Shown here: piece after piece, positions 10,803 to 30,091 of the stretch
Layout of the letters: each line of letters begins with the position of its first letter
Numbering within the stretch: position 1 is the stretch's first letter
Origin: Candidatus Nitrosopumilus sp.
GTDB lineage: Archaea > Thermoproteota > Nitrososphaeria > Nitrososphaerales > Nitrosopumilaceae
Direction: 5' to 3'
NCBI GenBank assembly: GCA_029863275.1
Contig: JAOTVS010000006.1
Coordinates: 1-55,998, forward strand
DNA length: 55,998 bases
Notes under the pieces: generated by a model
What the model was told of the DNA's origin: nothing
Databases searched by the model: none
What the model saw: only the letters and a program-made list of their open reading frames with translations
Program-made: the position numbers and the translations under genes

Positions 10803-12782
10803 CTAACCACAATTAGGATTTCCTTCGCATTCATTCCAGATGACATTATTAATTTGTGCACCTGTCATATCTGTCTCTTTTAAGTTTGCTTTTTCGAAAT
10901 TGGTATTTTCCAAATTAGCATTAGTTAAATTCACTCTAAACAAATCAGACATGCCAAAATGAGTATTATGTAAATTCGTGTTGGCCAAATTAGCACCAGG
11001 TAGTTGAGCATTGAAAATATCGGCGCCCGTAAAATCCGATCCCTCAAAATTGGTACCAGTCAAATAAGAATATTTTATATCCGAATTGATAAAATACGCG
11101 TTTACTACATTTGAATATTTTAAGCTAGTGCTTTTCAGATCAGATTCATTTAATATCGCGCCTTCAAAATTACTTTGAGATAAATTAGATTTGATAAGAT
11201 TTGATTGTGTTAAATCAGCATACGAAAGATCAGCATTCGTTATAGTTGCTGTATCAAAGTTTGTGTTTTTTAAATTCGTTCTAGAAAAATTGGATCCTAC
11301 AAGATTTGCACCCGCAAAATTCGTAGATTGTAAATTCATACCACTAAAATCAACAAATGAAAAATCACAATATGACCAGTTTATTATTTGAGTAGGAGGA
11401 CGATTACAGTGATTGATGGACTCTGTTTCAATTATCTTTCCCCATTTCCTGTCAATTAACTTGATTGCAGTTTTTGGTTCCAGGCACCCCACACCGGTTT
11501 TAGAAACTTTTTCCAAGATTACATGACCTTTCCTACATAGCACTTCATGTGGCAAAACACCTGTGTTTAATTGCTTTAATGGTGATGGATCTTCGCGGAT
11601 TAAATGGGTTGGTAAAATTCTATATATTGCGCTGTTATCAAAAATTGTAGAGACGTAAAGAAAGCCATCTGGGCCAGATTCAATACCCACTATTCCTTTA
11701 AAACCGGTTCCGAATATTATTTCATCAAGGGGATCATTTGGATTGTAAGTTAAATCATTTAGCTCGGGCGAAATAAAATTAAATCCAGTTCTCTGCTCAT
11801 TTAAAGGAAATTTGTATATTGTGCCAGTATTAAATCCTGCAACAAATATGGTATTTTCATAACCCTCAAACCATTTTGAATTGATAAATGAAATGCCGGT
11901 TGGTGCAACTGGTTGTTCAAATACAAATTTTGGATCAGTATATGTGAATTCATCAAAACCTGGAAGGGCAGAAATTTCTTCAGATGAGGCAAACCCCATT
12001 ATTTTATTCCAACCACCGTTAAACTTGGGCTGAATGAGATTGATTTCATCATTTTCATAGGAACCATTTTCAGTTTCCCACAGGTTACCTGTAATAGGAT
12101 CGATTGCTAAGCCAAAACTATTTCTTATGCCCATTGCCAAATAATGATCTAACACATTTGCAGACGTGTAAGGACGAATAACAGATTCCTCAGCCTCTAC
12201 ACGAATTATCACACTTGAATCATCGGGAGTATTCCCACCATTATTTTGTAGTGTTCCATTATGAGTGATGGTGTCACCTATAATGGCATAAACAGAATCA
12301 TCCAATCCTGTAACCATTACTCCTGCAGAATGATCAAAGCCTGTTCCTGCGGGTAACTCATTTACTAATTTTGGATTAACTAGATTGTTGCCATCCCATT
12401 GATACTTGTAAATCCTATTTAGAAATGGCTCATCAGGATTATCTGTTGTCTGTGTGGCATACAAATAGACAAAATTATCTACTGATGTAATTCCTAATAG
12501 ACCTGTGTGACCAACGTTATGGACATTGAGTTGTAAAACAGGTTCTTCGTGTAAAACCCCATCTCTAAAAAGTTTCACCTGACCATCATTTTTTTGCAAA
12601 ATTAACAAATCGTTGCCAACAAAATTCATCTGAACTGGCCATGATAAACCACTTGCTATTTCTTCCACAGTATAGTAAGAATCTACTATAGCTGGTTCAG
12701 CTGCAATAGATGGAAATATAATAACAAGAAAAGCAGGCAACAGAAAATAATGTATGTTATGATAATTTTTTATGACAAGCAC
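10803..12782 (-). CDS. Secreted sugar-dehydrogenase-like beta-propeller fused to pentapeptide repeats
   Basis: GTG start, 659 residues. A signal peptide (about residues 1-28) is followed by a glucose/sorbosone dehydrogenase-type propeller (about 38-395). Typical segments are GLSWPVQMNFVG, LLGITSVDNFVYLYAT, FDHSAGVMV, GIRNSFGLAIDP, ETENGSYENDEINLI and GPDGFLYVST. A linker with two Cys (VLCRKGH and GVGCLEPKTA) leads to about 35 pentapeptide repeats (about 467-645; for example ANLVGSNFSRTNLKNTNF), which fold as a right-handed quadrilateral helix. The protein is probably extracellular and may oxidise a sugar or simply bind glycans. PQQ or calcium use is not shown. The fusion is unusual. The second propeller protein at 21373-24036 lacks the pentapeptide part. 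Confidence 0.85.
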   Translation of the reverse strand: MLVIKNYHNIHYFLLPAFLVIIFPSIAAEPAIVDSYYTVEEIASGLSWPVQMNFVGNDLLILQKNDGQVKLFRDGVLHEEPVLQLNVHNVGHTGLLGITSVDNFVYLYATQTTDNPDEPFLNRIYKYQWDGNNLVNPKLVNELPAGTGFDHSAGVMVTGLDDSVYAIIGDTITHNGTLQNNGGNTPDDSSVIIRVEAEESVIRPYTSANVLDHYLAMGIRNSFGLAIDPITGNLWETENGSYENDEINLIQPKFNGGWNKIMGFASSEEISALPGFDEFTYTDPKFVFEQPVAPTGISFINSKWFEGYENTIFVAGFNTGTIYKFPLNEQRTGFNFISPELNDLTYNPNDPLDEIIFGTGFKGIVGIESGPDGFLYVSTIFDNSAIYRILPTHLIREDPSPLKQLNTGVLPHEVLCRKGHVILEKVSKTGVGCLEPKTAIKLIDRKWGKIIETESINHCNRPPTQIINWSYCDFSFVDFSGMNLQSTNFAGANLVGSNFSRTNLKNTNFDTATITNADLSYADLTQSNLIKSNLSQSNFEGAILNESDLKSTSLKYSNVVNAYFINSDIKYSYLTGTNFEGSDFTGADIFNAQLPGANLANTNLHNTHFGMSDLFRVNLTNANLENTNFEKANLKETDMTGAQINNVIWNECEGNPNCG

Positions 12783-12916
12783 CTGATTCCAAGTTTTTTA
12801 ATTAATTTAATCATGAGTTTATTTACTACTAATTTTTTTATTCCTTATTTCTTTTTGTAAAAAGTAATCTATATTACACAACATTATATTTCATGGATTG
12901 ATTTTAAACATAAAAT

Positions 12917-14764
12917 ATGGTTAATTTTTTTATTTTGGGAATAATTACATTAATTGTTTTTTTCCCATTCATTTCTGATCATTATGTGTTTGCAATTAAA
13001 AATACAGACATTGATCAATCTATTTCTAATCTGGAATCAGAATATCCAGGTATGTCCAACATTCAGTTTTTTCAAACCGATGCAAGTCCTCCATACATAA
13101 AAATAACAAATCCTAATCATTGCTCATCAAATTTTATTAACGGAACTGTACTAGTTGAAGGAATCTCTAGTGATTCAGATAAGGTAAAAATGGTCGAGGC
13201 AGTTGTTCTACCTTTCCCCTTTGAAGGGGAAATTTATTTTGAACCCACAACACCTATTGAACCTGAAGATTGGTCAAAGTGGTCAATACCACTAACTATT
13301 CCTAACGACCAACCACATAGAATTCTAGTACATGCATATGATTACTCAGGAAATGAAGAATGGGATGAAACTTTAGTCAATACCAAAAGAGCCCAAATGG
13401 TTGCCCAAGCAGTTGAAAACCAATCTGAAATAAAGATTGCCTTTGTGGAACCAACATTTACGAATGCAGCATACAATCTCGATTCATTCTACTTTTTTTA
13501 TTCTAAATATTTTTTTACGCCTAATGAACAAAAAATAACCACTGATCTGGACCTGCTTACAGGTGATATTCCACTAGAATATGAGACTGGATATTTTCAG
13601 AACCTCTTCAATCAAGTAAAACAGACGCTCCCAAACTCATTTGTGACTATTATAGGAGATGAAGAGATTCATGACGGGTCGATATTTGGTAATGATGAAG
13701 CCAATCTGTATGATGTGTTAATTTTTTTACATAATGAGTATGTTACACAACAGTACTATGACAACATGAAAGAATTTCTAATTAATGGAGGTTCGGTAAT
13801 TCTCTTGAACGGAAATGTATTCTATGCTGAGATCTTGTTTGATAGTCAATTATGCACTATTACTTTGGTGAAGGGCCATGATTGGGAGTTTGATGGAAAT
13901 TCTGCAAAACCCAGTGTGTCTGAGAGGTACCTTGATGAGAATTCAGAATGGTTTGGAAGTAATTATATTGTTAATGCTCTGGAAGATGATGTAATTTTTG
14001 AAAATAATCCCTTCAATTATTCCCACTTTGAAGAAAACCATTTAACCAATCCTCAAGCAGAAATATTGCTTGATTATAAAGTCAAATTTGCCCAGCCTCT
14101 TTTAAAACCTCCTACAAACCCATTTGTTATAGGGGGTATTTTAAAAGAAGAACCTCAAGTCCAATACAGCCACGAAAACAAAACAATTGCAACTTATGAA
14201 TTACCTTCTGGAAATGGAAAGGTAATCCATATGGGGCTGTATTCTCAGAACCTTGATTCAAATCCCGCGTTTCTAAACTATTTTGAAAAAATAATTCTGC
14301 CAAGAGCACTGGATAAAACCCATCCTATAGAAAGTGACTATGATACACCAGATGTGTACTGGATGTTTCCAGGAGGGAAGATATCTGACATCAAGCTGAA
14401 TTCAGAATCAAGGACTTTAAGCATGAAAGCGAGTTTTATTCCAAATGATAATGAACATGGATTAAAAGAATCTAATTTAACCATCGTAATTCCTAAAAGA
14501 GCATTGGATGCTCACACAGAAAACCAAATGACTGATTTTATCGTATTGGTAAATGGAATTAATACACCCTATGAAGAGTCCTTTGATGATGTTGAAAGAG
14601 GCTTAAAGATTGGTATTACTGAAGATTCCTTCATTGAAATTATTGGCACTAGTGCAATTCCAGAATTTAATATATCAATAATTGTGTTGATTATATCCAT
14701 TTTTGCGGTTTTATTATTTTCGAGAAATAATTTGAAAAATCAACGATTTTTCCAGGTTAAATGA
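12917..14764 (+). CDS. Membrane-anchored surface protein with beta-sandwich and amidotransferase-like module
   Basis: A 615-residue protein with a signal peptide (about 1-25), a beta-sandwich (about 55-150), the segment AYNLDSFYFFYSKY (about 185), a Rossmann-like module and a C-terminal membrane anchor (IIVLIISIFAVLLF). The module contains DVLIFLHNEYVT, GGSVILLNGNVFYAE and VKGHDWEFDG (about 262-330). It resembles class-I glutamine-amidotransferase-like domains such as those of N,N-dimethylformamidase beta subunits, but I see no clear catalytic Cys-His pair. The same beta-sandwich plus module forms the C-terminal half of the 1470-residue protein at 25679. It converges with the glycan operon at 14796-18237. 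Confidence 0.75.
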   Translation: MVNFFILGIITLIVFFPFISDHYVFAIKNTDIDQSISNLESEYPGMSNIQFFQTDASPPYIKITNPNHCSSNFINGTVLVEGISSDSDKVKMVEAVVLPFPFEGEIYFEPTTPIEPEDWSKWSIPLTIPNDQPHRILVHAYDYSGNEEWDETLVNTKRAQMVAQAVENQSEIKIAFVEPTFTNAAYNLDSFYFFYSKYFFTPNEQKITTDLDLLTGDIPLEYETGYFQNLFNQVKQTLPNSFVTIIGDEEIHDGSIFGNDEANLYDVLIFLHNEYVTQQYYDNMKEFLINGGSVILLNGNVFYAEILFDSQLCTITLVKGHDWEFDGNSAKPSVSERYLDENSEWFGSNYIVNALEDDVIFENNPFNYSHFEENHLTNPQAEILLDYKVKFAQPLLKPPTNPFVIGGILKEEPQVQYSHENKTIATYELPSGNGKVIHMGLYSQNLDSNPAFLNYFEKIILPRALDKTHPIESDYDTPDVYWMFPGGKISDIKLNSESRTLSMKASFIPNDNEHGLKESNLTIVIPKRALDAHTENQMTDFIVLVNGINTPYEESFDDVERGLKIGITEDSFIEIIGTSAIPEFNISIIVLIISIFAVLLFSRNNLKNQRFFQVK

Positions 14765-14795
14765 ATTACTTTATAATATTATTTAGGAATTTAAT

Positions 14796-15644
14796 TTAGA
14801 TTGGGATTATTGTAATATTATCGAAACTAGTTCTTGCATCCTCATTGTATAGTCCTATTTGTCCTGTATCAAAGGAAGAATTATCATCAAAATCATGAAT
14901 AATTTTTCCATTTACTAAAATGGTGATATGATCCCCTTTCACTATAATGTCCCAGTGATCCCATTTCCCGATATAGGTAGTAGGAAATTCAGAGTCACAA
15001 ATAAACAATTGGTCGACAGGATTTACCCCTCCGTCATATTTTCCACATTCTGTACCATTTGGTTTAAGGGTAAAGTAATTAAAATGAGTATCATCAACGT
15101 ATCTCCATAAAACCCATGCCACTTCCCACGGGTTAGGATTTTCTGGCCTTAACTGTTTATCCGTCCTAACATCCAATGAGAGAATAAAATCTTTGTATTT
15201 TTCTTTGGTCAATAAAAGTGGCGCTCTTGTTTCATTTTCCACAAATTCTGGTTCCAATACAACAACATTGTTATTAATTTCGTGATTGTCTGATACCACA
15301 TCTATGATGCCTCCTCCTTTGTAGGCAATTACCCACTTTTCATTAGGAGATAGTGATCCTTCTGAATTTTCGTTCCATTCAGGCCAATTCGAAAAATCAT
15401 CAAACATTTTGGCAGGATCATGAGAATGATGATAAATTGATGTATCGGGGTCAAATCTTTCATTTTCCCCAATTCCTAGTAGAATTGGTTCATTTGATGT
15501 GGCATTTTCCTCTTTGAGTATTAGGGATTCAGACTCGTTTTCTTTTTCATTAGATGCTATTAATAACTGAAAGGTTGCGTTTATGAAAAATATTCCAACT
15601 AATATTAGAATTATGCCAATCGATATTTTTGAAATAATTTTCAT
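14796..15644 (-). CDS. Membrane-anchored lectin-like jelly-roll protein
   Basis: 282 residues: an N-terminal membrane anchor (SIGIILILVGIFFINATFQLL), an acidic spacer, and a concanavalin-A-like beta jelly roll. Segments such as EVAWVLWRYVDDTHFNYFTL, KWDHWDIIVKGDHITILVNG and TGQIGLYNEDARTSFDNI are typical of lectin/glucanase-like (DUF1080 or LamG type) domains. It probably binds or trims a surface glycan. It is the last gene of a three-gene operon, starting 3 nt after the epimerase stop with a purine-rich upstream site. A segment of about 245 bp is nearly identical to the relic at 19065-19309. Confidence 0.8.
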   Translation of the reverse strand: MKIISKISIGIILILVGIFFINATFQLLIASNEKENESESLILKEENATSNEPILLGIGENERFDPDTSIYHHSHDPAKMFDDFSNWPEWNENSEGSLSPNEKWVIAYKGGGIIDVVSDNHEINNNVVVLEPEFVENETRAPLLLTKEKYKDFILSLDVRTDKQLRPENPNPWEVAWVLWRYVDDTHFNYFTLKPNGTECGKYDGGVNPVDQLFICDSEFPTTYIGKWDHWDIIVKGDHITILVNGKIIHDFDDNSSFDTGQIGLYNEDARTSFDNITIIPI

Positions 15645-15647
15645 AGT

Positions 15648-16763
15648 TTATCTCTGATTAATAACTTCAAGTCTTATTATATTATTCAATTTGGTTTTTT
15701 TACAGTCTAAAAAAATTTTTTTAATAACATTTACCGTTTTTCTTGTTACAAACTCTCCATATGGTTGATTTTTAATTTTACCTCCAATCATCTCCTCGAC
15801 AACACTTACAAGACTTTGAGTATTTTGCAAAAGGGGATAGAGTCTATTTCCTCCGATTAGAACTGTTTCCCACCTTTCAGTCGTGTATCTGAGAGTAACG
15901 CAAGGTTTGTTTAAAATGATGGCCTCTTCTTGAATACCTCCACTATCTGTTAAAACTAACTTTACTTGTTTTAACAATGATAAAAATTCGATATATCCTA
16001 AGGGATCTATGATAGTTACATTTTTTGGAATCTTTATGTTATTAGTTTTAAGATTTTTCCTTGTTCTTGGATGAATTGGAAATATTATTTTATACATTGA
16101 AAGTTCACTTAATTTCTCCACAAGGATCTTCAATGATTTCTTATCATCCACATTTTCAGCTCTATGCAAAGTAAGCAAAATGGACTCTTTATCTAAATTA
16201 TGGTCTTCATGTAAATTAATTTTCGAAAATTTTTTACTAACATCTACTATTAAATTACCAGTAACGTAAACATGTTTCTTTATTCCTTCAAAACGGAGGA
16301 ATTCCCTCGAAAGCGAAGTAGGACATAGCAGATAGTCTGAAATGTGATCTACCTTTATCCTGTTTTGTTCTTCTGGCATTCTCAAATCAAAACTTCTTAG
16401 ACCCGCTTCTATGTGAACAACCTTTGTTTTAGTATCTCTTCCAGCAAGAGCTCCTGCAAGAGTAGAGTTGGTATCTCCATAAACCAAAATAATCAAAGGT
16501 TTAAGTTTTAAAATTAATTTAACCAATTTTTTTCTAATTACTTCTACATCTGAAGTGTTGCAAGCCAAATCGATATCAGCTTTTGAACCTAATCCGTCAA
16601 AAAAAATATCCTTCATATTTTTTGAAAAATGCTGTCCTGTGTATACATATACACTTTCACAAAAATTTATTTTTTTTTCCAATTCAGAAAGCTTAATCAC
16701 TTCAGGTCTAGTTCCTGCAATCATCATAATGTCGCACGAAGGAATTGATTTTATTTTAGTCAA
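15648..16763 (-). CDS. wecB: UDP-N-acetylglucosamine 2-epimerase (non-hydrolysing), copy A
   Basis: Interconverts UDP-GlcNAc and UDP-ManNAc, supplying ManNAc-type sugars for polymer synthesis. Family landmarks are GTRPEVIK, YTGQHF, YGDTNSTLAG, HIEAGLRSFD, MPEEQNR, HRAENVD and TDSGGIQEEA; the corresponding Asp, Glu, Glu and His are the known catalytic residues. The frame is open to 16868 inside the upstream gene. A TTG at 16763, just past that gene's stop and preceded by cggagga, is the best start and gives the usual 371 residues. It is in one operon with the GT2 gene and the lectin-like gene. A paralogue lies at 19888-20958. Confidence 0.92.
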   Translation of the reverse strand: MTKIKSIPSCDIMMIAGTRPEVIKLSELEKKINFCESVYVYTGQHFSKNMKDIFFDGLGSKADIDLACNTSDVEVIRKKLVKLILKLKPLIILVYGDTNSTLAGALAGRDTKTKVVHIEAGLRSFDLRMPEEQNRIKVDHISDYLLCPTSLSREFLRFEGIKKHVYVTGNLIVDVSKKFSKINLHEDHNLDKESILLTLHRAENVDDKKSLKILVEKLSELSMYKIIFPIHPRTRKNLKTNNIKIPKNVTIIDPLGYIEFLSLLKQVKLVLTDSGGIQEEAIILNKPCVTLRYTTERWETVLIGGNRLYPLLQNTQSLVSVVEEMIGGKIKNQPYGEFVTRKTVNVIKKIFLDCKKTKLNNIIRLEVINQR

Positions 16764-16764
16764 A

Positions 16765-18237
16765 TTAATTTTCCTCCGAAAAATGTTTGCGATTGGTTCG
16801 GATCTTTTGCTTGATGGGTTCATTGGAAAGTTTTCTTTTGATCTTTTCACCAGTGGCAACTTGTTCAATCAGTTCTTTACTAAATCCGTGGGTTGTTTTT
16901 GTCGAGTCCCATGATTTTACAAAAAATGATTTTATCAAGCAAACAAACCAATAATGAGCAAATCCAGATAATAAAAATATGTGAGATGCGTGTTTTATTT
17001 TTCTTATGCCCATCTGTCTTAGAATTATAACGAATTGTAATGAATAACTAGTCGTTGTTACTATAAACCATAACTGGATTGGAACAAAAGTGAATTTGTA
17101 CGGAAATTCTGCAAAAAGAACATAATGCATTATGGCAATTGAAGTGACCAGAATTGAAAAAAATCCGCTAATCATAAAAATTGGAGATAACCAATAGATA
17201 ATGCCCATAATGTCTGTTTTTTCAGGAATTTTTTGGCGAAGAAGATCAAAGTGACCTTTTACCCATCTAGATCTTTGTCTAAACATAAGCGCTAAATCAC
17301 CTGGCTTTTCGTCATATACTTCGGATAGTGAAGCAAAACCTATTCTGAAATGGTTTCTGTAAAATCTAAAGGAAAGTTCAAAATCTTCAATCAGGGCGTT
17401 TGAAAAACCTCCTATTTGTTTTAATGGATTCTTCTTTATGATGGAACCTGTACCCCCAAGAGGGGTCCTTTTATCTAGAATATGCCTTACTGCCATAAAT
17501 GGCGTTGAAAACATGTCACCTTCTAAAGAAAGCATTTTGGTTTGAATGTTGTAATCAGGATTACTAGAACAAATTTTTCCTTGAACTGCCGCATACCCTT
17601 CGTCAAACAAAGGAAGAGCATTTTTTAGAAAATCCCTATTTAAAATGCCATCAGCATCCAAAATCATGATGTATTCACCTTTTGATATTTCCACACCATG
17701 ATTTAGGGCAATTCCCTTGCCTGATTCTTTTGTTTTCAAGTCTATGGGTCTTACTCTTTTATCAGTTGATTGAGATTTTTGAAAAGTTTGATCTGTACAA
17801 TTGTGGCACAGAACAATCACTTCAAAGTTTTTGTACGATTGTGCTAAACATCCCAGTATTGTTTTTTGAATGACATTTTGCTCATTCTTTGCAGGAATGA
17901 GAATACTCACCAAAGGAAATGTTGAATATTTCTTTTTTTTAACAAGTTTTTCTTGCTGCCGTTCGATTCTTTTTCCGACAAAGAGATAGATAGTTTGAAT
18001 TGAAAACCAAAGAAACGTACTTGTCATTCCCAACATCACAGAAAACCATGTGAGATAAGATAAATCCAAATCAGATGTCATATCAAGTTCAACACCAAAA
18101 ACCCAAGGGGTGACTGTATAATACACCATGATAAACCATAAAGATGCCATCACAAAAAAGAATCCCAAAAGTAACTTGGTTTCAAATTGCTGTCTTTTAC
18201 TTGACGGAATAATGGGAGTGTTCTTTAATTTTCTCAT
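16765..18237 (-). CDS. Processive-type membrane glycosyltransferase (GT2), copy A
   Basis: 490 residues with two N-terminal membrane segments, a cytoplasmic GT2 domain and C-terminal membrane segments, as in hyaluronan, cellulose and poly-GlcNAc synthases. The nucleotide-sugar motifs are PAKNE, DAD (194-196), the acceptor/base ED (284-285, IEDFELSFR) and QRSRW (321-325), the Q-x-x-RW signature of polymerising enzymes. It likely builds and exports a surface polysaccharide. The epimerase encoded directly downstream suggests a ManNAc-containing product, though that is inference. The last four codons overlap the ribosome-binding region of the epimerase gene. Confidence 0.9.
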   Translation of the reverse strand: MRKLKNTPIIPSSKRQQFETKLLLGFFFVMASLWFIMVYYTVTPWVFGVELDMTSDLDLSYLTWFSVMLGMTSTFLWFSIQTIYLFVGKRIERQQEKLVKKKKYSTFPLVSILIPAKNEQNVIQKTILGCLAQSYKNFEVIVLCHNCTDQTFQKSQSTDKRVRPIDLKTKESGKGIALNHGVEISKGEYIMILDADGILNRDFLKNALPLFDEGYAAVQGKICSSNPDYNIQTKMLSLEGDMFSTPFMAVRHILDKRTPLGGTGSIIKKNPLKQIGGFSNALIEDFELSFRFYRNHFRIGFASLSEVYDEKPGDLALMFRQRSRWVKGHFDLLRQKIPEKTDIMGIIYWLSPIFMISGFFSILVTSIAIMHYVLFAEFPYKFTFVPIQLWFIVTTTSYSLQFVIILRQMGIRKIKHASHIFLLSGFAHYWFVCLIKSFFVKSWDSTKTTHGFSKELIEQVATGEKIKRKLSNEPIKQKIRTNRKHFSEEN

Positions 18238-18770
18238 TTCGGTAAATCCTAAAAATTATTTTGTTCCCAATCTTCTTGGTAAAGCCCCATTGAGTTATTA
18301 GAGGTAAAATTTTTTTCTCCTAGGAAAAAATTTATTCCGTAAATTAGATATCTGTGAAAAAATAACTGTATATCCAAACATAACCTTGGTTGTTCTGCAA
18401 ACTGGCTAGAAATTCTAGCACAAAAAATTCTCCTAGTCACCAAAATTCATTAAATAAATTTATTGTTAAATTCATGTGTGTAATGATTACTTCTAACAGT
18501 TACAACAATTCTTGTACCGGTATAACATCTTATATATCAAATCAATTAATGATAAATTTAATTCATTATTTATCAATAAATACTTTAGATTTTAAAAATT
18601 TTTTGAAAATAATTGGAAAAAATAATGCCTCGCTAATTTTATTTACAATATGAAATTTAATAATAAATTATTTAGAAAACTTTTTTGATGGAAAATATTA
18701 TGGTTTGTGCTTTGTTGTACAAACAAGTCGTTATAATTTAGAATTATAAAAAAAGTTCATGGGGAGTGTT
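18238..18770. other. Long AT-rich intergenic region
   Basis: Between the GT2 operon (reading leftwards) and a zinc micro-protein (reading rightwards). Only low-quality frames are present on either strand and none looks coding. It probably holds the promoter of the GT2 operon near 18240-18330. Confidence 0.45.
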
Positions 18771-18863
18771 ATGATAGAAGTTTGTAGGTTTTGTAAAAAA
18801 GAACAACCTTGTTTAAATCTATTTTGTATTAATTGTCAAAACCGTGATTGGGAATCAAAATAA
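18771..18863 (+). CDS. 30-residue zinc-finger-like micro-protein
   Basis: ATG preceded by ggggag. The protein reads MIEVCRFCKKEQPC and then CINCQNRDW, so there are two C-x2-C pairs plus one extra Cys, suitable for one zinc ion. It stands alone between the two glycan modules. Similar tiny CxxC proteins recur at 39624, 48953, 50016, 53380, 54165 and 54712. Confidence 0.55.
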   Translation: MIEVCRFCKKEQPCLNLFCINCQNRDWESK

Positions 18864-19045
18864 TCTCAAAATCCATCAAGGAGAATAAAACTTGTTGATT
18901 AGGTCCTAAAATAAAATTAAAAATAAATTCCACAATTCAGATTGGCATGTGATACTAATTGAATGGTTTTTGGTAATAATTTTAGTTCCAAAATAATTTC
19001 AAAACTCAATTGGGATATTAAAGTTTTAGTTCAATACACCTACAG

Positions 19046-19468
19046 TTAATCGATGCAAACTGTCACAAATTCTGGTTCCAATACAACAACATTATTATTA
19101 ATTTCGGGATTGTCTGATACCACATCTATGATGCCTCCTCCGATGTAGGCAATTACCCACTTTTCATTAGGAGATAGTGATCCTTCTGAATTTTTGTTCC
19201 ATTCAGGCCAATTCGAAAAATCATCAAACATTTTGGCAGGATCATGAGAATGATGATGAATTGATGTACCGGGGTCAAATCTTTCATTTTCCCCAATTCC
19301 TAATAGAGATGTGGGGTTTGTCATATTTCTAATACTATTAGATATTACAATTTCACTTTCAATATTTTTCTAATCAAATGATTCTTGAAGTTGAAAATAT
19401 GTAAAAATGAAAAGCGCTAGAAATACTGCTATAACCACTATTATCAGCATTTTGGAATAAATTTTCAT
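19046..19468 (-). pseudogene. Truncated lectin-like gene (relic of a paralogue of 14796-15644)
   Basis: The frame starts at an ATG at 19468 with a good membrane anchor (MLIIVVIAVFLALFIFTYFQ), meets an in-frame TAG at 19370-19372, then resumes with SLLGIGENERFDP and continues to EPEFV before diverging and stopping at 19046. Compared with the intact gene, the whole jelly roll is missing. The stretch 19065-19309 differs from 15241-15485 at only about 8 of 245 positions, while the membrane anchors are quite different. This suggests recent gene conversion onto an older paralogue, which was then truncated. Confidence 0.8.
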
Positions 19469-19617
19469 TTTTATCAATATTTAGGAATTTTGAGCTCAAT
19501 TTTAAAATTAATTTCTATTAATTAGATATGTCGAGTTTTTATTGTAACAACTGTTGAAACCAACCAGATTTGAAATTATATTTAAAGAAATTTCTAAATT
19601 CTTTCAAATAATTTTCT

Positions 19618-21094: not shown

Positions 21095-21388
21095 TTGAAA
21101 ATAATTCAAAAATTTCATTTCAAAGAAAAATTTTTTTCTTTAGGAATAGCTTGTATTATTTTCCCCAACCAAAATATTTGTTGTAAGTATTGTAAAAACT
21201 TTATGGGAATTATTAAAGAAATAAATTCGAAGGAAACTTTCAAGGCAATTTGTACCTCTTGTCTAGAATTAACATGTAATTGTGGTCATTTTTGCTTACA
21301 ACATAATTCTCTGTCAGGATCCTGTTTTCATTATGAGCCTGTAAAAGCTAGATTATGTAATTGTAAACAATTTCAAGAGAATAATTGA
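21095..21388 (+). CDS. Cys-rich small protein, probable zinc binder
   Basis: TTG start; up to 97 residues. Cys-rich segments are ICCKYCKN, CTSCLELTCNCGHFC and, near the end, GSCFHYEP and LCNCKQF. With more than ten Cys and two or more His it could bind two zinc ions or an iron-sulfur centre. The N-terminal 25 residues are basic and hydrophobic and the true start might be further in. The 3' end overlaps the convergent propeller gene by 16 bp. The family is not recognised. Confidence 0.5.
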   Translation: MKIIQKFHFKEKFFSLGIACIIFPNQNICCKYCKNFMGIIKEINSKETFKAICTSCLELTCNCGHFCLQHNSLSGSCFHYEPVKARLCNCKQFQENN

Positions 21389-24036
21389 AACCAAGATAAA
21401 AATATCTCCAAAATATTTTTTGATTCAATTATTTTTATTTCACTTTCTAGAATTGTTTCATTGTCATTAAAATCTACTACCGAGACTTCTATCATATTTT
21501 TTGGAGGAGTAAGGTGGACAAGTCCTTTATAGACATTACCCTCTTGTTTGACAAGATTGATTATTTTTATCTGACCTTGATGTGCAAATTTCAATTGTTT
21601 AGATTTTAGGGGTGAATCATTTAATATTTCAACCAAAATTAAATTTTTACCTTCTTTTGATTCTTGAGTTAGAAGAGTTATTTTTGGTTCTGTTTTGTTC
21701 CCAATTATCTGGTGCTTTTCTCCAATTTGATCAGAAATCATTTCCAAATTTTGAAGGGACAAGGGTGATTGAGTTAATGGTTCCTTTGTTGAATTTTTTG
21801 AAAATTCCAATCCGAGGTTCATATAGGTCCCTTTAATGATTAGTTTTTTGGGGATGTTAGACTCATCAAAATTCACAATAATATTATTGAATTCATCAAT
21901 TGTATCATTCTTATCAAACCGTAAACTAAAATTCATCGGTTTATTTTTCTCATTTAGTACCAGAGAAATTCCATCAAGTAGTATTTTTGGTATTTTCAAT
22001 TTAATAAATCCCTCTTCAGAATGATTTATGTTTTCCAATCTTTCAAATTCAATTATTATTTCTTTTTTCTTTGTTTCCAGTTTTAGGTTACTTGCGGACA
22101 TTTTAGGATCCATTTGAAGGGATATTGGAAAACCCACTCTTGTTGAATTATTAAAATCAATTGATTTAATTTTCTTTATACTGTACCCACCAAAAAAAAT
22201 TTCACCATCTAGACTTTGTGTAATCCCAATTACTCTACTAAATGGATCTTCTCTAATATCGAGCAATTCCTCTTTTACAATTTTTCCGGTTTTTTCATCC
22301 AAAGTCAAGATGTAAATGCCATTATGGTATGATGCAAACAGAAACTTTCCCTCTAATTGGGGAAACTTTTTGCCATCGTAGTAAATCATTTGAGTTGGTT
22401 CGATAGAATTTTTGTAAGATCTTAATGGCTGGATAGAATCAAATGTATCTGAAAATTGACCAGAAATATTTGATTTTTGATAATTTGGGAAACCATAATT
22501 TCCACCTTTTTTAATTTTATTTATTTCATCAAGAGAAATATCCCCATTTTCTGTAACAAAACCTAATCCTTTTGAATCAAATGCGATACCTTTTAAATTT
22601 TCGTGACCTAATGTAAAAATAGGAGAATTATTGAAAGGGTTGTCTTGAGGAATACTTCCGTCTTTATTTATTCTTAAAATTTTCCCAAGATAGATATTTG
22701 GATCCTGTGCAAAAAGTGATTCTTCTCCATCTCCCACTGCTACATATAACTTTCCGTCATGAGGTCCTATGGTTATTGCACCTCCAGGATGAAATCCGTT
22801 CGTAGCTGGAATATTGTCAAAAATAATTTTCATATCTTCCCCAACGTTATTTTTATCCGTAAATCGAACTACTCTATTGAAAATTTCTCCATTATCGTTG
22901 TCTGCTCTTGTATAATATAGATAAACAAATTTATTATTTTTAAAATCATCATCGAATGTAATTCCTAACAAACCTTGTTCCCAATCATGATGCACATCAG
23001 AAATTCTTGTAAAGGGTTTTTCTAAAATAAGTCCATTTTTTTGAATTTTGACAAATCCTGTATTTTTTTCCAAAATAAATAATCGCCCATCAGGGGCAAA
23101 AGCTAAACTTCCAAGCATGGTAACCATTGTACCATCATTACCTTTTCCTGAGGAGTCTTTTAGATTGTTTTCAAACCTCCATTCTCCTAAAATTTCTTTA
23201 ACCATTTGTTGGTCTTTGGGTTTTGTGATCACACTTTGATTGTTAAAAATTTTTTCCACCTCACCATCTGATAATGCATAGTTGAAAAAAAGAACCTCAT
23301 CTAAAGTTCCAGACCAAGTTAATTGGTCTGGGTTTATAGAAGATGACCCAATTCTTAAAGAATTTCCTGGATTAGAATCATAATTTCCAGGATAAACAAT
23401 GGTACTTGCAATTTTTCCATCAAGATAAACCTCTACAGTTCGTCCATCAAACGTTCCCACAACATGAGAAAAGGAATGTGAGTTTAACTCAACTTTAGGC
23501 GGAATTATTATTTCTCCTTCTCTATTAGTTACCCCAAAATTTAGGAATTGTTTTCCATCACTTTCAGTGGTGGAACTAACAAACCATCCCGAATTCAAAG
23601 ATTTAGAAAGATGAGAAATAATATGTGATAAACCCTCAATATTGTTTTGATTTTTTATCCAAAAAGAAATGGAAAATTGGGATGGATTTATTGAATATTT
23701 ATTCTCAATTTCAACAGATTCCAGTTTATTGGCTAAAAAATTTAAACCCTGTCCTACTTTCCCATCAACAAATTTTATCTTCGAGTTTGATAGTTTTTCA
23801 ACAAGATCATAATCAAATGAAACTTTAACCATCTCCAATTCATCCCTAGTAGGGTCGCATGTAAAACCATAAAATGAGTCCGAGCACACAAAAAATTGAT
23901 TCTTATAATTCACAGCATCGTTATTTATTTCGTGATTACCATAAACTAACGACGGAATTAACTGAAACAATAAAATAAATATAAAAATTGACAACAGTGG
24001 CGTAACAAAGTTATTTCGTGAATCAGCTGATGACAA
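21373..24036 (-). CDS. Secreted LamG plus sugar-dehydrogenase-like beta-propeller protein
   Basis: 887 residues. A signal peptide (LLSIFIFILLFQLIPSLVYG) is followed by a LamG/concanavalin-like domain (about 65-272: FSISFWIKNQ, SHVVGTFDGRTVEVYLDGK, GTLDEVLFFNYALSDGEV). Next comes a glucose/sorbosone dehydrogenase-type propeller (about 300-655: SLAFAPDGRLFILEK, GLLGITFDDDF, FHPGGAITIGPHDGKLYVAVGDG, NLKGIAFDSKG) and a beta-rich C-terminal region. It probably binds or oxidises a surface glycan. It pairs with the propeller-pentapeptide protein at 10803 as the second copy of this family in the region. Confidence 0.82.
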   Translation of the reverse strand: MSSADSRNNFVTPLLSIFIFILLFQLIPSLVYGNHEINNDAVNYKNQFFVCSDSFYGFTCDPTRDELEMVKVSFDYDLVEKLSNSKIKFVDGKVGQGLNFLANKLESVEIENKYSINPSQFSISFWIKNQNNIEGLSHIISHLSKSLNSGWFVSSTTESDGKQFLNFGVTNREGEIIIPPKVELNSHSFSHVVGTFDGRTVEVYLDGKIASTIVYPGNYDSNPGNSLRIGSSSINPDQLTWSGTLDEVLFFNYALSDGEVEKIFNNQSVITKPKDQQMVKEILGEWRFENNLKDSSGKGNDGTMVTMLGSLAFAPDGRLFILEKNTGFVKIQKNGLILEKPFTRISDVHHDWEQGLLGITFDDDFKNNKFVYLYYTRADNDNGEIFNRVVRFTDKNNVGEDMKIIFDNIPATNGFHPGGAITIGPHDGKLYVAVGDGEESLFAQDPNIYLGKILRINKDGSIPQDNPFNNSPIFTLGHENLKGIAFDSKGLGFVTENGDISLDEINKIKKGGNYGFPNYQKSNISGQFSDTFDSIQPLRSYKNSIEPTQMIYYDGKKFPQLEGKFLFASYHNGIYILTLDEKTGKIVKEELLDIREDPFSRVIGITQSLDGEIFFGGYSIKKIKSIDFNNSTRVGFPISLQMDPKMSASNLKLETKKKEIIIEFERLENINHSEEGFIKLKIPKILLDGISLVLNEKNKPMNFSLRFDKNDTIDEFNNIIVNFDESNIPKKLIIKGTYMNLGLEFSKNSTKEPLTQSPLSLQNLEMISDQIGEKHQIIGNKTEPKITLLTQESKEGKNLILVEILNDSPLKSKQLKFAHQGQIKIINLVKQEGNVYKGLVHLTPPKNMIEVSVVDFNDNETILESEIKIIESKNILEIFLSWFQLFS

Positions 24037-24297
24037 ATATTATCCAGTATTTTTTTAAAACCAGAGTTATTAAACCTAAAATAAATCTATTTATTTTTTT
24101 GAATTTTTACATATTCAAAACTAAAATTTATATTTAAAATTGTAACAAAAAAAAAAATACATAAAGATACCCTATTATATAAAATTGTTAAAAATTCATC
24201 TTGGGCGATAGAGGTGAAGGTATAATCTTTAGGGATTCCTATAAAATATTTTCCAATTTCAATACTTACTCCAATCTTATCAAAGGAGGATTTTAGA

Positions 24298-25677
24298 GTG
24301 ATTGAACAAAAATGGAGCTTATTTTTTTTGGGCATACTAATCATTTGGGCCGTTATTCTATATTTTACTTTGAGTGCCACGGTTGGTTCAATGGAGATTT
24401 TAGTAGATGAAGATTATGATATAACTGCAATTTCTATTGTTTTTCTTGGAATAATTTTATTTTATTATTCATTCCAAATTTTTATTTTTATTACATACCT
24501 GTTTACGTTTGACAAGATAGTATCAAACCAAGAAAAAGCAATCGCTAAATCAAAATTAAAGAAAAAAACATCCAATGAAGTTGATAGTTTACAAAATGAC
24601 GTATGCAGTATAATTATTCCTGTTCACAATGAAGAAAATATTATTAAAAGAACTGTTTTGAATAGTCTTAGACAAACATATTCAAATATAGAAATTCTTG
24701 TAGTGTCCCACAATTGTTCAGATAACACTGCGAATAATTTTCCATTGTCTGACCCACGTGTAAAAAGTCTGGTTCTTACCACACCTGATGCAGGAAAAGG
24801 ATTGGCTTTGAACCATGGTGTTAAACATGCTAGAGGGAAATATATCCTAATTATTGATGGAGATGCAATTTTAGAAAATAGTTTTATTGAAAAAAGTTTA
24901 CCTTTATTTGAAAACCAACCCAATGTAGCGGCCATCCAAGGTAGGTATTTTTCAAGTAATAGAAATTACAATATTATTACAAAACTACTCTCCCTCGAAT
25001 CGGATCTTTGGTCTGTTCCTTTTATGACAATTAGAACCTTTTTTGGAAAAAAATGTCCTCTTGGAGGAACTGGACTTATTATCAAAAGGGATGTTCTAAT
25101 TAAAGTAGGTTTTTTTGAGAATCATTTAGTTGATGATTATGAATTAAGTTTTAGACTGATAAAAAATAATTTTAAAATTCTTTTTGCTCCATTATCCATT
25201 TGCTATGATGAAAAACCTCCGTCTGTCCGGGTAATGATAAATCAGCGTTCTCGTTGGTTTAAAGGATTTGTAAATTTGTTAACACATAACATTACAAATT
25301 CAAAAGATATTTTGGGTGTTATTCATTGGCTAATGCCCGTCTCAATTTTTGCAGGTCTTGGATTATTCATAATATTTACAATTTCTGCTATTCATAATTT
25401 AGTTTTTCAATACTATCCATTTACTTTTACATATATCCCAGTTTTACCCTGGGCAATTTTGATGGTTTTAGTTATTTCATTACAGTGTATAACCTTAACA
25501 AAACAATATGGTCCGACAGGATTACGGTTCTCAATGTGGATTCCTGTTTATATGTTATTTTCAAACTATTGGTTGGTAGTGTCAATAAAATCATTTTTTG
25601 TAACAACATGGAAAACAAACAAAACTATGCATGGTTACATTGGCCAAAAGGATTTAAATTTAATCATAGAGAATTAA
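24298..25677 (+). CDS. Processive-type membrane glycosyltransferase (GT2), copy B
   Basis: 459 residues, GTG start preceded by a strong aaggagga. The architecture is as in copy A: two N-terminal membrane segments, GT2 domain and C-terminal membrane segments. Motifs are PVHNEEN, DGD at 187-189 in place of DAD, VDDYELSFR and NQRSRW. Long matching runs such as NHGV, PLGGTG and CYDEKP show common descent with 16765-18237. The giant beta-helix gene begins 1 nt after its stop, so the two are co-transcribed and the beta-helix protein may act on the polymer made here. Confidence 0.9.
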   Translation: MIEQKWSLFFLGILIIWAVILYFTLSATVGSMEILVDEDYDITAISIVFLGIILFYYSFQIFIFITYLFTFDKIVSNQEKAIAKSKLKKKTSNEVDSLQNDVCSIIIPVHNEENIIKRTVLNSLRQTYSNIEILVVSHNCSDNTANNFPLSDPRVKSLVLTTPDAGKGLALNHGVKHARGKYILIIDGDAILENSFIEKSLPLFENQPNVAAIQGRYFSSNRNYNIITKLLSLESDLWSVPFMTIRTFFGKKCPLGGTGLIIKRDVLIKVGFFENHLVDDYELSFRLIKNNFKILFAPLSICYDEKPPSVRVMINQRSRWFKGFVNLLTHNITNSKDILGVIHWLMPVSIFAGLGLFIIFTISAIHNLVFQYYPFTFTYIPVLPWAILMVLVISLQCITLTKQYGPTGLRFSMWIPVYMLFSNYWLVVSIKSFFVTTWKTNKTMHGYIGQKDLNLIIEN

Positions 25678-25678
25678 A

Positions 25679-28600
25679 ATGAATTTAAATCAAAGAATTT
25701 TCAAAAATTTATTCTTTTACATCTTTCTAATATCTATCACAATGATATCGATACCTGAAATGAATAAGTCGTTTGGAGAGGTGGTAGAACCTTATTGTAT
25801 TGATTTAAACCGTCACCAAAAATTAATTACCATTCATTGTGGTAATGTTCATTTGTCAGACATTGACAACATTCTTAGCGCACGAAGTGTATTAACACAA
25901 GAGACTGTAGGAAATTGGCAACTTCGAGCAGATATTTTGGTAAAAGAAAAAGGTAACTTGATAATCGATTCGTCAGATACAAAAACTCTAAAAATTGAAA
26001 CCCTATATGGAATAACATCATATGGAAATTTAGTAATAGATTCAGTAAAAATTGTATCTTGGGATTTCAAAATGAGAGAATATCCAACAACTAATGGAAT
26101 CCAACCTAGATCCTACATAACTCATGGGTATGAGGGTATAGTCGGAGGCATGAACATTACAAATTCTGAACTTGCCTTTCTTGGATTTGATGAATACTCC
26201 AAGCAAGGAATTTCTTACTTTGCAGGAGATGGAAGTATATTTAGTAATAATCATGTACACGACTCGTGGCAAGGAATTACTACGGCAAATGTAGGGTTTG
26301 TAACAATTGAAAATAATTTTATTCATGACATTGAAATGTTTGGATTAAACCATAGCTTTGGGTCTCATGATTTAACAATTAGAAATAATACTATATCTTA
26401 CATTAGGGAAGGAATTGGAATCGTTTGCTCGGGTGACTGTGAAAATATCCTAATTGAAGAAAACAGAGTTTTTAATTCCAAGGAGGCTGGAATAATGCTT
26501 TACCAAAATGCAAATAATTCAATAATAAAAGATAATTTTATTTTTAATCAAACAATCGGGATATCCATTGCAGATTCGAGTAATAATCATATCAATAATA
26601 ATATGATACACGATGTAGTAGATGGAATACAGGTAAAAGTTCTCAATCCCGAAATATATACTTCTCAAGAAAACAGGATTTTTGGAAATAAATTTTCAAA
26701 AATTGAGGGTTTACCTATTTTTATTGACACCCATAGTATTCGTAATAATATCTTTCAAAATTCATTTGATAAAAAGGATTCCCCTGGAGTATTCTTTAGT
26801 CCACTAACAGGACCTGGTAATTTGGTCTCAGACAGTATTTTTGTTGATTCTGAAAAAATTTTGCAGGTGGGAAGTTCAGAAATATCTGAACTTGGTGCGT
26901 TACGAATAGGCCTAATAGACAATTCTTTTACTCGTACGGCGAATCAAAAAGGAGGCATTGAATCGTTTCTTTTTAAAAATATAGACCAGCCTCAAACTTT
27001 TGTTACATCAGATCTTCATATGTTACAATCACCAATAATTAAAAAAAACAGTCCTCAGGTTTTGTCTTTTCAAAGCTATTTAGAGCAAATATCTCCAAAT
27101 TCTGAAATTTCTTTTTTACGTGATGAAGATATCCATAAAAATTTAATTTTTAATACTAACCAAGATCGTCTTTTTGACGTTCTAATTTTGTTTAGTCAAG
27201 AATTTGTATCTCAAGATGAATATGATAATTTAAAGAGATTTGTTGAAATGGGTGGAAAAATTATTTTCCTAGATGGGGGAATATTTGTTGCAGAAATTGT
27301 TTATGATGAGGCAAGGAATTCTATACAGTTCAAGAAAGGAAAAAATTGGGAATTTGACGGAAATTTGGCACAAAAAAGTGGTTGGGAGAGATATCAAACC
27401 CAAAATCAGGAATGGATTGGAAGTAATAGTCTATCTATTGAGAATGAAAATAGAATTCAGTTTTTAAATAATCCATTTGGGAATAATTTTTCACAATTGA
27501 GTTTTATTTCAAATTCAAACGCAGAGATGTGGCACGATTTTGGTGCAATTGCATCGTACAAGTTACCTGATGAAAAAACAGCGATCGCAAAGGTTGGGAT
27601 TTATCAATTAGATTTTGGACAAGGAAAAATATTGATGTTGGGAATATCTTCATCATCTTTAATTGAAGACAAGAAATTTCAAGATTTCTTTAAGAATTAT
27701 ATATTTCCAAAATTTCTAGGAGAGCAATATTTTATTGACCAATTTGAACAATATGATGATCTTAAAATAAATTGGATTTTGAATTCAGGGAAAATTTCTG
27801 ACACTATTGTAGACCTGAAATTAAACGCAATCACCTTGAATTTAGAAAGAAGTGATAAGGTAAATGATAATTTAAAGTTGGTTTTACCGCAAACCCTTTT
27901 ACACATTAAAGATACTGGCCAAACTAAACTACAGGTATTTGTAGACCATATTCCAGTAGATGCAAACCCAATTCTTACAGACACCAGTTCTGGATTTGAA
28001 ATTCCCCTTCGACCCATTTCATCATCAGTTAAAATTATCGGTGACGAGTTAGGTTTTTTCGATGACAAAGGACCTGAAATTACTATCAACAATATTGATT
28101 TTATATTCAATGAGGACTATCAAGAAGTTTCGGTAGACGTAACAGTAGAAGATTATGAGAGTGGGGTAAACAATTCTGATTTATTTTTGGAAAAAATTCC
28201 AACTGGAGAAATATTTGATTTCGCTAATCCCGAAGATGAGATCTCAAATTTCCCATCTTTGAAAATGGATATTCCTTATGATGCAGGAACTACTTTTAAA
28301 ATAATTGCTACTGCCACGGACTATTTGAATAACAGATCCTGGATAGAAAGTGAAATTTTTGAAAGTTATGGCTACGAGGATTCAAAAAATCTTGAAAATT
28401 CCACATTGATTGAGGGACAAACAAAAGATGATGCAGGGAAATGGGGTGAACCAAGGAATTCGTCGAAATTATCCATACATTATCCATCCATATGTAAGCC
28501 CTTGAATCAGATTGGGGATATTATTGTCAAGGGATCTTCGTTTGATGAAAAGGGAATTGCAAAAATAGAGGCCTTAATACACAAATTACCCCATGATGGT

Positions 28601-30091
28601 TCTTTTGATTTCCAACCAGTAACTCCAATAAGTCCAGGAAACTGGTCGCAATGGTCAATCAACTTTACAATACCGGATGAAAAACAATATAGAATTCTTG
28701 TAGAATCTACAAATTTGTATAATAAAAAAATGTGGGCTGAAGTCATTTTAGATGATATTTTCACGAAAAAAACACTAAACTCCCACAAAGAAACTAGTGG
28801 TAAAAAATTACATGCTTTTTTATATCCAACTTTTACTTCAGGTGCATATAATTTAGATTCGTTTTACTTTTTCTATTCCAAATATTCTGGGGCAACTTCT
28901 TCGGAAGAAATTACCACTGATTTAGATCTATTAACTGGAAAGGTACCTTCTGTACCGGATGTAGGGTATTTCCAGCCACTCTTGGAGCTAGTTCAAGAAT
29001 ACGACCCTGGTTCTGATGTATCAATAATTACCGACAATTATGTCCATAACGGATTAATTTTTAATGAGAATGGAGATAACTTGTATGAATCGTTATTTGT
29101 CCTACATGATGAATATGTCACTCAAGAATCCTATGAAAATCTCAAAAAATTTGTTCAAAATGGGGGTGTAATTGTATTTCTAGATGGAAATATTTTTTAT
29201 GGTGAAGTTGAACTTGATGAAGAAAATTGTACAGTTACTTTGGTGAAAGGTCACGATTGGGAATTTGATGGACAAGTTGCCAAAAAGAGTGTGAGTGAAC
29301 GATATTTTGATGAGAATCAAACTTGGATGGGAAGTAATTTTATAATTAATCAATTGGATTCTGAAGTTATTTTTGGAAATAATCCCTTCGATTATCGCCA
29401 TTTTGAAGAAAATCATCTTACCAACCCAAAGGCCCTAATCTTAATTGATTATTTAGCAGAATTCCTTTATGAAAAAACAAATCCAGATGAATCAATTGAA
29501 GATATAGAATTAAAATTAGATGAGAGTAATAACAAGAATTCCAATTTTGTAGATTCCCCAAGGGTGGCTACATATGAACTCGATTATGGAAAAGGTAAGG
29601 TAATAATGATGGGAATTTATGCTGAAAGATTATCAGAGAATACAGAATTTCAAAAGTTTTTTCAAAAAATAGTTCTACCTCGTGCTATCGGAAACAAGTA
29701 TCCTATTTTATTGGAAAGTGAAAAATTTGATATATTTTGGGAAATGAGGAATGGAAAGGTGACACATATCGAATTAAATAATAAAGAAAAAAATCTAACA
29801 CTAGAGCTAAACACAATTGATTCTGATAAGTCTGGTTCACATCCAAATACTTTGATAGTTTTAATTCCTAAACAACTATTAGATTCACCCACTCCTACCA
29901 ACCAAGGAAATTATGATGTATTTTTAGATGGAAAACCAGTCGAATATAACCAGGTAAGTGATGATTTTGAAAGAAGTATTGAAATTCAACTTCCGCCAAA
30001 TTCAGGAAGGGTAGAAATTTTTGGAAAAAATATCCTAAGTGAGCAAAAGTCTTTCTTGGAATTTACATCTGAACTAATTAATAGAAATTAA
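25679..30091 (+). CDS. Giant secreted beta-helix protein with two amidotransferase-like modules
   Basis: 1470 residues. After a signal peptide (about 10-35) comes a right-handed parallel beta-helix (about 150-370; repeats such as NNFIHDIEMFGLNHSFG and NNTISYIREGIGIV) of the pectate-lyase/NosD type that often binds or cleaves polysaccharides. A first amidotransferase-like module follows (about 500-620: FDVLILFSQEF, GGKIIFLDGGIF, KGKNWEFDG). Then come beta-sandwich domains and a second module (about 1054-1260: AYNLDSFYFFYSKY, LFVLHDEYVTQ, GGVIVFLDGNIFYGE, KGHDWEFDG). The second module is much closer to 12917-14764 than to the first. No C-terminal anchor is evident. It is coupled to GT2 copy B. 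Confidence 0.8.
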   Translation: MNLNQRIFKNLFFYIFLISITMISIPEMNKSFGEVVEPYCIDLNRHQKLITIHCGNVHLSDIDNILSARSVLTQETVGNWQLRADILVKEKGNLIIDSSDTKTLKIETLYGITSYGNLVIDSVKIVSWDFKMREYPTTNGIQPRSYITHGYEGIVGGMNITNSELAFLGFDEYSKQGISYFAGDGSIFSNNHVHDSWQGITTANVGFVTIENNFIHDIEMFGLNHSFGSHDLTIRNNTISYIREGIGIVCSGDCENILIEENRVFNSKEAGIMLYQNANNSIIKDNFIFNQTIGISIADSSNNHINNNMIHDVVDGIQVKVLNPEIYTSQENRIFGNKFSKIEGLPIFIDTHSIRNNIFQNSFDKKDSPGVFFSPLTGPGNLVSDSIFVDSEKILQVGSSEISELGALRIGLIDNSFTRTANQKGGIESFLFKNIDQPQTFVTSDLHMLQSPIIKKNSPQVLSFQSYLEQISPNSEISFLRDEDIHKNLIFNTNQDRLFDVLILFSQEFVSQDEYDNLKRFVEMGGKIIFLDGGIFVAEIVYDEARNSIQFKKGKNWEFDGNLAQKSGWERYQTQNQEWIGSNSLSIENENRIQFLNNPFGNNFSQLSFISNSNAEMWHDFGAIASYKLPDEKTAIAKVGIYQLDFGQGKILMLGISSSSLIEDKKFQDFFKNYIFPKFLGEQYFIDQFEQYDDLKINWILNSGKISDTIVDLKLNAITLNLERSDKVNDNLKLVLPQTLLHIKDTGQTKLQVFVDHIPVDANPILTDTSSGFEIPLRPISSSVKIIGDELGFFDDKGPEITINNIDFIFNEDYQEVSVDVTVEDYESGVNNSDLFLEKIPTGEIFDFANPEDEISNFPSLKMDIPYDAGTTFKIIATATDYLNNRSWIESEIFESYGYEDSKNLENSTLIEGQTKDDAGKWGEPRNSSKLSIHYPSICKPLNQIGDIIVKGSSFDEKGIAKIEALIHKLPHDGSFDFQPVTPISPGNWSQWSINFTIPDEKQYRILVESTNLYNKKMWAEVILDDIFTKKTLNSHKETSGKKLHAFLYPTFTSGAYNLDSFYFFYSKYSGATSSEEITTDLDLLTGKVPSVPDVGYFQPLLELVQEYDPGSDVSIITDNYVHNGLIFNENGDNLYESLFVLHDEYVTQESYENLKKFVQNGGVIVFLDGNIFYGEVELDEENCTVTLVKGHDWEFDGQVAKKSVSERYFDENQTWMGSNFIINQLDSEVIFGNNPFDYRHFEENHLTNPKALILIDYLAEFLYEKTNPDESIEDIELKLDESNNKNSNFVDSPRVATYELDYGKGKVIMMGIYAERLSENTEFQKFFQKIVLPRAIGNKYPILLESEKFDIFWEMRNGKVTHIELNNKEKNLTLELNTIDSDKSGSHPNTLIVLIPKQLLDSPTPTNQGNYDVFLDGKPVEYNQVSDDFERSIEIQLPPNSGRVEIFGKNILSEQKSFLEFTSELINRN

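Follow-up and report, generated by a model that had tools for sequence, protein, structure and literature searches.

What does an archaeal gene island make when it encodes two membrane polysaccharide synthases and two nucleotide-sugar epimerases beside a series of exported proteins, and how did it come to hold so many families in pairs? The question is raised by a 55,998-nucleotide stretch of Candidatus Nitrosopumilus sp. (below, the window; positions 1 to 55,998 of contig JAOTVS010000006.1, GenBank assembly GCA_029863275.1). A preliminary description had seen in it a single unit of five families, duplicated locally and partly decayed. The analysis reported here leads to another answer. The region is probably a patchily distributed surface-polysaccharide island, lodged at a tRNA-Thr/DsbA hot spot, in which two separately evolved synthase sets would form a synthase-dependent polysaccharide along with dedicated exported proteins for its remodeling.

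The nine open reading frames (ORFs) first described are open at the places given below, and their families were confirmed by Pfam and NCBIfam profile scans of the nine island proteins, P1 to P9. Set A consists of P2-P3-P4-P5 and set B of P7-P8-P9.

10803..12782, minus strand: P1, exported GSDH propeller (114 bits, Pfam) with WING-49 and pentapeptide repeats
12917..14764, plus strand: P2, set A, surface protein with Ig-like, glutamine amidotransferase (GATase)-like (DMFA2_C, 36 bits) and beta-sandwich domains
14796..15644, minus strand: P3, set A, membrane-anchored ConA-type jelly roll of the 3-keto-disaccharide hydrolase (3KDH) family (3keto-disac_hyd, 62 bits)
15648..16868, minus strand: P4, set A, WecB-type epimerase of the partner-type clade (TIGR00236, 274 bits), its true start probably inside the called ORF
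16765..18237, minus strand: P5, set A, membrane GT2 synthase of A type
19064..19468, minus strand: relic of a second P3-type gene
19888..20958, minus strand: P6, WecB-type epimerase of the other clade (TIGR00236, 329 bits), nearest to that of genome G017 (52%)
21373..24036, minus strand: P7, set B, exported protein with Laminin_G_3 (LamG), GSDH (215 bits) and a C-terminal domain
24298..25677, plus strand: P8, set B, membrane GT2 synthase of B type
25679..30091, plus strand: P9, set B, exported 1470-aa protein with an AlgG/NosD-like beta-helix and two GATase-like halves (DMFA2_C, 53 bits)

The GT2, WecB, GSDH and GATase-like families do each occur twice, the second jelly roll being a broken relic, but the pairs are old, since amino-acid identity within them is only 27% (GSDH), 40% (epimerase), 40% (GT2) and 42% (GATase-like). 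In the GT2 tree P8 joins Nitrososphaeraceae in a clade of 17 rows (99/100) and P5 lies with G376 and G029, both metagenome-assembled genomes (MAGs) of Nitrosopumilaceae (92/91, 83/100), sharing 68% identity with the G376 enzyme; sisterhood of P5 and P8 was rejected by the approximately unbiased (AU) test (p 1.5e-5). A 100/100 branch divides P4 from P6, the former grouping with synthase-linked copies and the latter with the WecB of another genus, G017 (99/86), and their sisterhood was likewise rejected (AU p 1.8e-4). P1, on a long branch, and P7 are also parted by a 100/100 branch, in a tree that leaves out the P1-type copies of congeners (AU p for sisterhood 9e-61). Duplication of one functional unit is thus refuted for three of the five pairs by the test that the preliminary description had itself proposed, namely independent closest relatives. 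The GATase-like pair comes nearer to the original claim: P2 and the C-terminal half of P9 share a clade (96/92), but within it P2 is sister to the copy of G376, another genus (100/98), and the P9 half is sister to both. This appears to be an older duplication within this archaeal family, predating the split from the other genus. P3 groups with its counterparts in G376 and G029 (100/100). Taken together, the trees indicate that sets A and B are not copies of each other; they are two separately evolved sets joined in one island.

The families recur together elsewhere in archaea, a point that the preliminary description had proposed to check. A search with P8 of 400 genomes of the order, treated as one set across searches, gave 22 hits at E ≤ 1e-45, and the reading covered every one of the 22 synthase contigs, from 21 genomes, that lie outside the window; 17 carry a B-type and five an A-type synthase. 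A P4-type epimerase is present on 17 of the 22, a count that includes broken copies in G109 and G157 and omits the G223 epimerase, which is on a separate contig. LamG-GSDH is found on 14 of the 22 (B-type 14/17, A-type 0/5), GATase-like proteins on 10 (two partial), the 3KDH family on seven, P1-type GSDH on four and the beta-helix on three. The C-terminal domain of P7 corresponds to a separate gene of about 170 aa beside the synthase in other genomes, and a small protein resembling it occurs on 13 of the 17 B-type contigs, as does a PIG-L deacetylase on 11 (one broken, one cut).

Gene order is conserved for set A. At the start of contig C72 of G376 is the tail of a PEFG-type surface protein, after which come 3KDH, epimerase and GT2, arranged as in the window; P3 keeps its position and gene order in both G376 and G029, and an ortholog of P2 (56% identity) is encoded on G376 contig C94. 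Judged by trees and gene order, other Nitrosopumilaceae have an orthologous and syntenic counterpart of set A; the kin of set B are in Nitrososphaeraceae. At the level of whole genomes, 3KDH was found in 12/22 synthase-positive genomes vs. 1/378 others (p 3e-16), LamG-GSDH (E ≤ 1e-100) in 17/22 vs. 3/378 (p 8e-23), and GATase-like proteins in 14/22 vs. 26/378. Within the 61 Nitrososphaeraceae that appear among the listed matches, the corresponding values for synthase-positive genomes and the rest are 9/19 vs. 1/42 for 3KDH and 16/19 vs. 3/42 for LamG-GSDH. GSDH matches at E ≤ 1e-30 occur in 269/400 genomes, most of them without a synthase hit, which leaves the LamG type as the only informative one. 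On seven contigs without a synthase, GATase-like genes stand together with P7-type GSDH genes, and the two are fused in single ORFs at L053 (GATase-like with LamG-GSDH) and L054 (GATase-like, beta-helix and LamG-GSDH). In a wider search the synthase (E ≤ 1e-45) was found in two of the 250 genomes searched across the phylum; both belong to the order. A strict-pattern scan of genome contigs, which distant kin could escape, returned 17 loci, all from ammonia-oxidizer lineages.

Pfam families seen near the synthase or its partners include PIG-L, LpxD-like, GH26, galactose-oxidase-like and Vgb-like proteins. A GH26-family hydrolase adjoins the synthase in Nitrosocosmicus-type genomes (L023 12244-13452; L032 15465-16640) and is a possible clue to the polymer. 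A galactose/glyoxal-oxidase-like (Kelch) protein at L054 14471-16756, near glycan genes in several Nitrososphaeraceae, is possibly a second sugar oxidase.

The extent first described, 10803-30091, holds all nine ORFs, but the variable region is wider. It measures 22.5 kb (7811..30288, strand unassigned), on the host contig C41 of a 1.76-Mb assembly that is 99% complete, and lies between two conserved genes:

6950-7810: DsbA gene, left flank of the island
30289..30363, minus strand: tRNA-Thr(TGT) (ARAGORN), right island edge, the 3′ end of the tRNA toward the island

The site was compared in seven of nine congeners, two being left out. The tRNA-Thr(TGT) gene and the gene at 30910 form the right flank in 7/7 of these loci, and DsbA the left flank in six, the contig of the seventh stopping before it. 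In G006 and G009 the tRNA and DsbA genes stand about 183 bp and about 204 bp apart, near-empty sites of the kind by which a tRNA-linked genomic island is recognized; in G003, G005, G001 and G008 the gap is 0.95–5.2 kb (also given as 0.9–5.2) and holds other genes. Because the same flanks enclose from about 183 bp to 22.5 kb of differing cargo, the tRNA-Thr/DsbA site qualifies as a hot spot and the island as accessory. No integrase was recognized among the island ORFs, and no copy of the tRNA-Thr 3′ end was found at the island, the best 20-nt match being 14/20; tRNA-mediated integration with attachment repeats was rejected for want of either. The nine congeners gave no match to P8 (E ≤ 1e-45), P2 (1e-20), P3 (1e-15) or P6 (1e-30). 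The exception among the island genes is P1, of which relatives occur in 6/9 congeners (E ≤ 3.2e-48) at other genomic places.

Set B has a G+C content of about 29–31% and set A about 32–34%. Also inside the island, at 8931-10133 on the minus strand, is an exported protein of about 400 aa from a multicopy family of the genus with copies in five of six congeners searched (10 matches in G005, five in G006, none in G007). A related pilin/flagellin-like exported protein of about 215–240 aa, recognized by eye, recurs at the congener hot spot (G008 L043 10318-11028; G001 L044 13339-14058; G003 L049 16218-16865).

Decay is real, as had been proposed, but the relic is a mosaic of which only a 244-nt stretch is recent. 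This core differs from the intact P3 gene at eight positions (97% identity); divergence is far greater in the 5′ part, where there is one in-frame TAG, and on the 3′ side similarity to P3 stops abruptly after the core. An old second gene that gene conversion overwrote in part, and that was also truncated, would fit this pattern. Tandem pairs of the P3 family are present in G074, G109 and G157. The G+C minimum of the window (27%) lies around the relic, at 18200-20000, where long ORFs are absent.

What might such proteins do? Processive membrane GT2 enzymes are marked by DxD, ED or DD, and QxxRW; P5 keeps DxD, ED and QxxRW, and P8 keeps DxD, DD and QxxRW. By crude hydropathy, membrane segments are present on P5 and P8 and absent from P4 and P6, and N-terminal hydrophobic segments for export or anchoring are present on P1, P2, P3, P7 and P9; P2 has a hydrophobic segment at both ends, and its PEFG-CTERM-like tail scored 19 bits, under the cut-off of 25. 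The scores of P4 and P6 exceed the WecB cut-off of 210, and the WecB motifs are present in both. In GSDH proteins a His is catalytic and an Arg contacts pyrroloquinoline quinone (PQQ); P1 keeps both. P3, at 62.4 bits against a gathering threshold of 26.8, belongs to PF06439, the hydrolase activity being putative. Its model is a ConA-type jelly roll with fold matches that include CBM66, laminarinases and 3-keto-2-hydroxy-glucal hydratase; a search of P3 against the sequences of solved structures gave no match, and the profile of its family matched putative glycosyl hydrolases and a levanase CBM only weakly.

P9 was rejected as an alginate-type epimerase. The motif of AlgG, a mannuronan C5-epimerase, is DPHD; the aligned residues of P9 are NHSF, and its score against NF038177 is 52.9 bits with a cut-off of 700. 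The term “amidotransferase-like” holds for the fold of the P2 model, but not for catalysis: class-I glutamine amidotransferases need a nucleophilic cysteine, and among 12 rows no alignment column has four or more Cys, so that this function too was rejected. P2 and P9 exceed the DMFA2_C threshold of 27, a domain of N,N-dimethylformamidase, whose active site has Tyr and Glu. The P2 model (predicted local distance difference test, pLDDT, 74) has Ig-like, GATase-like and beta-sandwich domains, named from secondary structure, and matches dimethylformamidase (6lve), an acylase and GH42/GH164 enzymes at low template-modeling (TM) scores, low because just part aligns. A GATase-like profile search returned one weak, unrelated hit only.

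From these family memberships we infer the mechanism throughout, and a ManNAc-type polymer from the epimerases alone. The WecB-type epimerases would convert UDP-GlcNAc to UDP-ManNAc, and the two membrane GT2 synthases would polymerize nucleotide sugars and extrude the glycan. As the chain emerges outside, exported or membrane-anchored proteins would bind it and remodel it: the LamG-GSDH and GSDH propellers by binding and possibly oxidation, together with the ConA-type 3KDH-like protein, the beta-helix and the GATase-like surface proteins. The product may serve as a coat or matrix for adhesion. A UDP-sugar dehydrogenase domain is encoded elsewhere in the genome (C60); uronic acid in the polymer is possible but unsupported.

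Several observations weigh against this reading. Against the profile of PgaC/IcaA, the poly-beta-1,6-GlcNAc synthases (TIGR03937), P5 and P8 score 108 and 120 bits, a long way under its cut-off of 422. In P7 the His is conserved, but Glu replaces the Arg of GHRN, a position at which sugar dehydrogenases and 15/15 other P7-type rows have Arg; because this PQQ-site Arg is lost, oxidation by P7 is doubtful, and binding without oxidation may be all that the local propeller does. GATase-like proteins are untied to the synthase within Nitrososphaeraceae (12/19 vs. 21/42, p 0.25) and were rejected as its marker there. Since P1-type propellers occur in congeners away from the site, P1 does not count as set-specific, and its standing as a partner is weakened. 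The synthase was found in just 5/15 listed genomes of genus g29 (Nitrosocosmicus) at E ≤ 1e-45, so the locus cannot be a universal one for the coat. Several of the contigs are short MAG pieces, on which absences are weak evidence.

The rivals must answer to the same observations. The most substantial is catabolic: the propellers, the 3KDH-like protein and the beta-helix would oxidize and cut glycans from the environment to gain electrons (mixotrophy), and glycan synthesis would be only a neighbor. GSDH proteins of ammonia-oxidizing archaea (AOA) are so read, as sugar oxidation for energy, in the accessible parts of PMC6657660 and PMC13006922, and the accessible part of PMC9007349 describes a DUF1080 3-ketotrehalose hydrolase and proposed bacterial 3-keto-glycoside hydrolases. 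This reading is nonetheless unlikely for the island, where LamG-GSDH follows the synthase across genomes and adjoins it, P7 is without its PQQ-site Arg, and no sugar importer was recognized among the genes scanned; the wide spread of GSDH, mostly in genomes without a synthase hit, also speaks against it. Less probable still is that the locus decorates glycoproteins of the S-layer or N-glycan kind and makes no free polymer. A WecB homolog is listed for AOA N-glycosylation (PMC12153357, accessible part) and several surface proteins are encoded in the window, but the GT2 enzymes have the processive QxxRW and membrane segments, and no oligosaccharyltransferase or flippase was recognized in the nine proteins scanned, no search by name having been made elsewhere.

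Local duplication of one five-family unit, with one copy decayed, would explain five families seen twice within 20 kb, the recent 244-nt copy, and the common clade of P2 and the P9 half. It is very improbable given the rejected sisterhoods, the closer kin that each of those copies has elsewhere, and the different partners that the A and B sets keep in other genomes. Equally slight are the chances that unrelated surface genes gathered at the hot spot by accident. Four congeners do carry different cargo at the site, P1 and the 8931 gene have family members at other places in the genus, and P6 comes from a different clade; against this stand the data on co-occurrence and fusions, and the P3-P4-P5 order, which another genus keeps beside the tail of a surface protein.

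An island of two synthase sets with dedicated remodeling proteins, the preferred reading, has partial parallels among known systems. Like the poly-N-acetylglucosamine (PNAG; pgaABCD/ica) and alginate loci, it has membrane GT2 enzymes with processive motifs, an adjoining nucleotide-sugar enzyme and exported modifiers; P9 has an AlgG-like beta-helix fold, and in relatives a PIG-L deacetylase lies beside the synthase. It differs in that its synthases fall under the PgaC cut-off, these synthases are accompanied by exported GSDH propellers and by GATase-like and 3KDH-like proteins, and no PgaA/B/D or AlgK/E part is recognizable among the nine proteins scanned. The earlier view of a set that makes, exports and modifies a glycan, unlike a standard capsule locus, is upheld. 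P7 resembles PQQ aldose dehydrogenases (sGDH 1c9u, Pyrobaculum 3a9g) in its GSDH propeller and conserved His, and departs from them in its LamG fusion, Glu for the GHRN Arg, and linkage to a synthase. P3 shares family score and jelly-roll fold with 3-keto-disaccharide hydrolases (PF06439/DUF1080), and is unlike them a membrane-anchored archaeal protein adjoining a synthase, with putative catalysis.

Nitrosocosmicus lacks an S-layer and has amino-sugar genes and a possible glycocalyx, a coat seen by cryo-tomography whose composition is unknown; its nosD gene was read as nitrous-oxide related (PMC11559005, accessible part). The B set is present in five g29 genomes, 10 of the 15 listed being without it at the threshold, and the accessible part of that paper names no such locus. 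Nor is the cluster named in the accessible parts of PMC12448741, PMC11561398, PMC10117904, PMC12153357 or PMC13245735, and literature searches, mostly beyond whose reach were the subscription papers, found no description of it. The surface-glycan set is real and recurrent, and on the evidence of these searches it has not been described before; here it is assembled from two lineages. Recurring in soil ammonia oxidizers, the sets are candidates for making the cell coat; they offer a defined, testable locus in five Nitrosocosmicus genomes, other soil lineages and a few marine-type relatives. They also call into question the view that all AOA GSDH proteins serve sugar catabolism. A bolder possibility, to which we give little weight, is that an AOA synthase-dependent amino-sugar polymer is oxidized in place by surface quinoprotein-like propellers, and that the oxidized sugars are in turn substrates of the ConA-type and GATase-like proteins; P7 of the window may then have lost the oxidation step. 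If true, archaea would possess a pathway for polymer oxidation, and some of the GSDH expansion now taken as mixotrophy would belong to coat chemistry.

Two further repeats were seen in the window. Within the gene at 40459-41364, a 113-nt repeat (81%) at 41038-41297 gives a doubled ‘VPEWVKNNAGWWADG’-type motif. At 52272-53246 there are two neighboring paralogs of about 130 aa, 71% identical in DNA over 100 nt.

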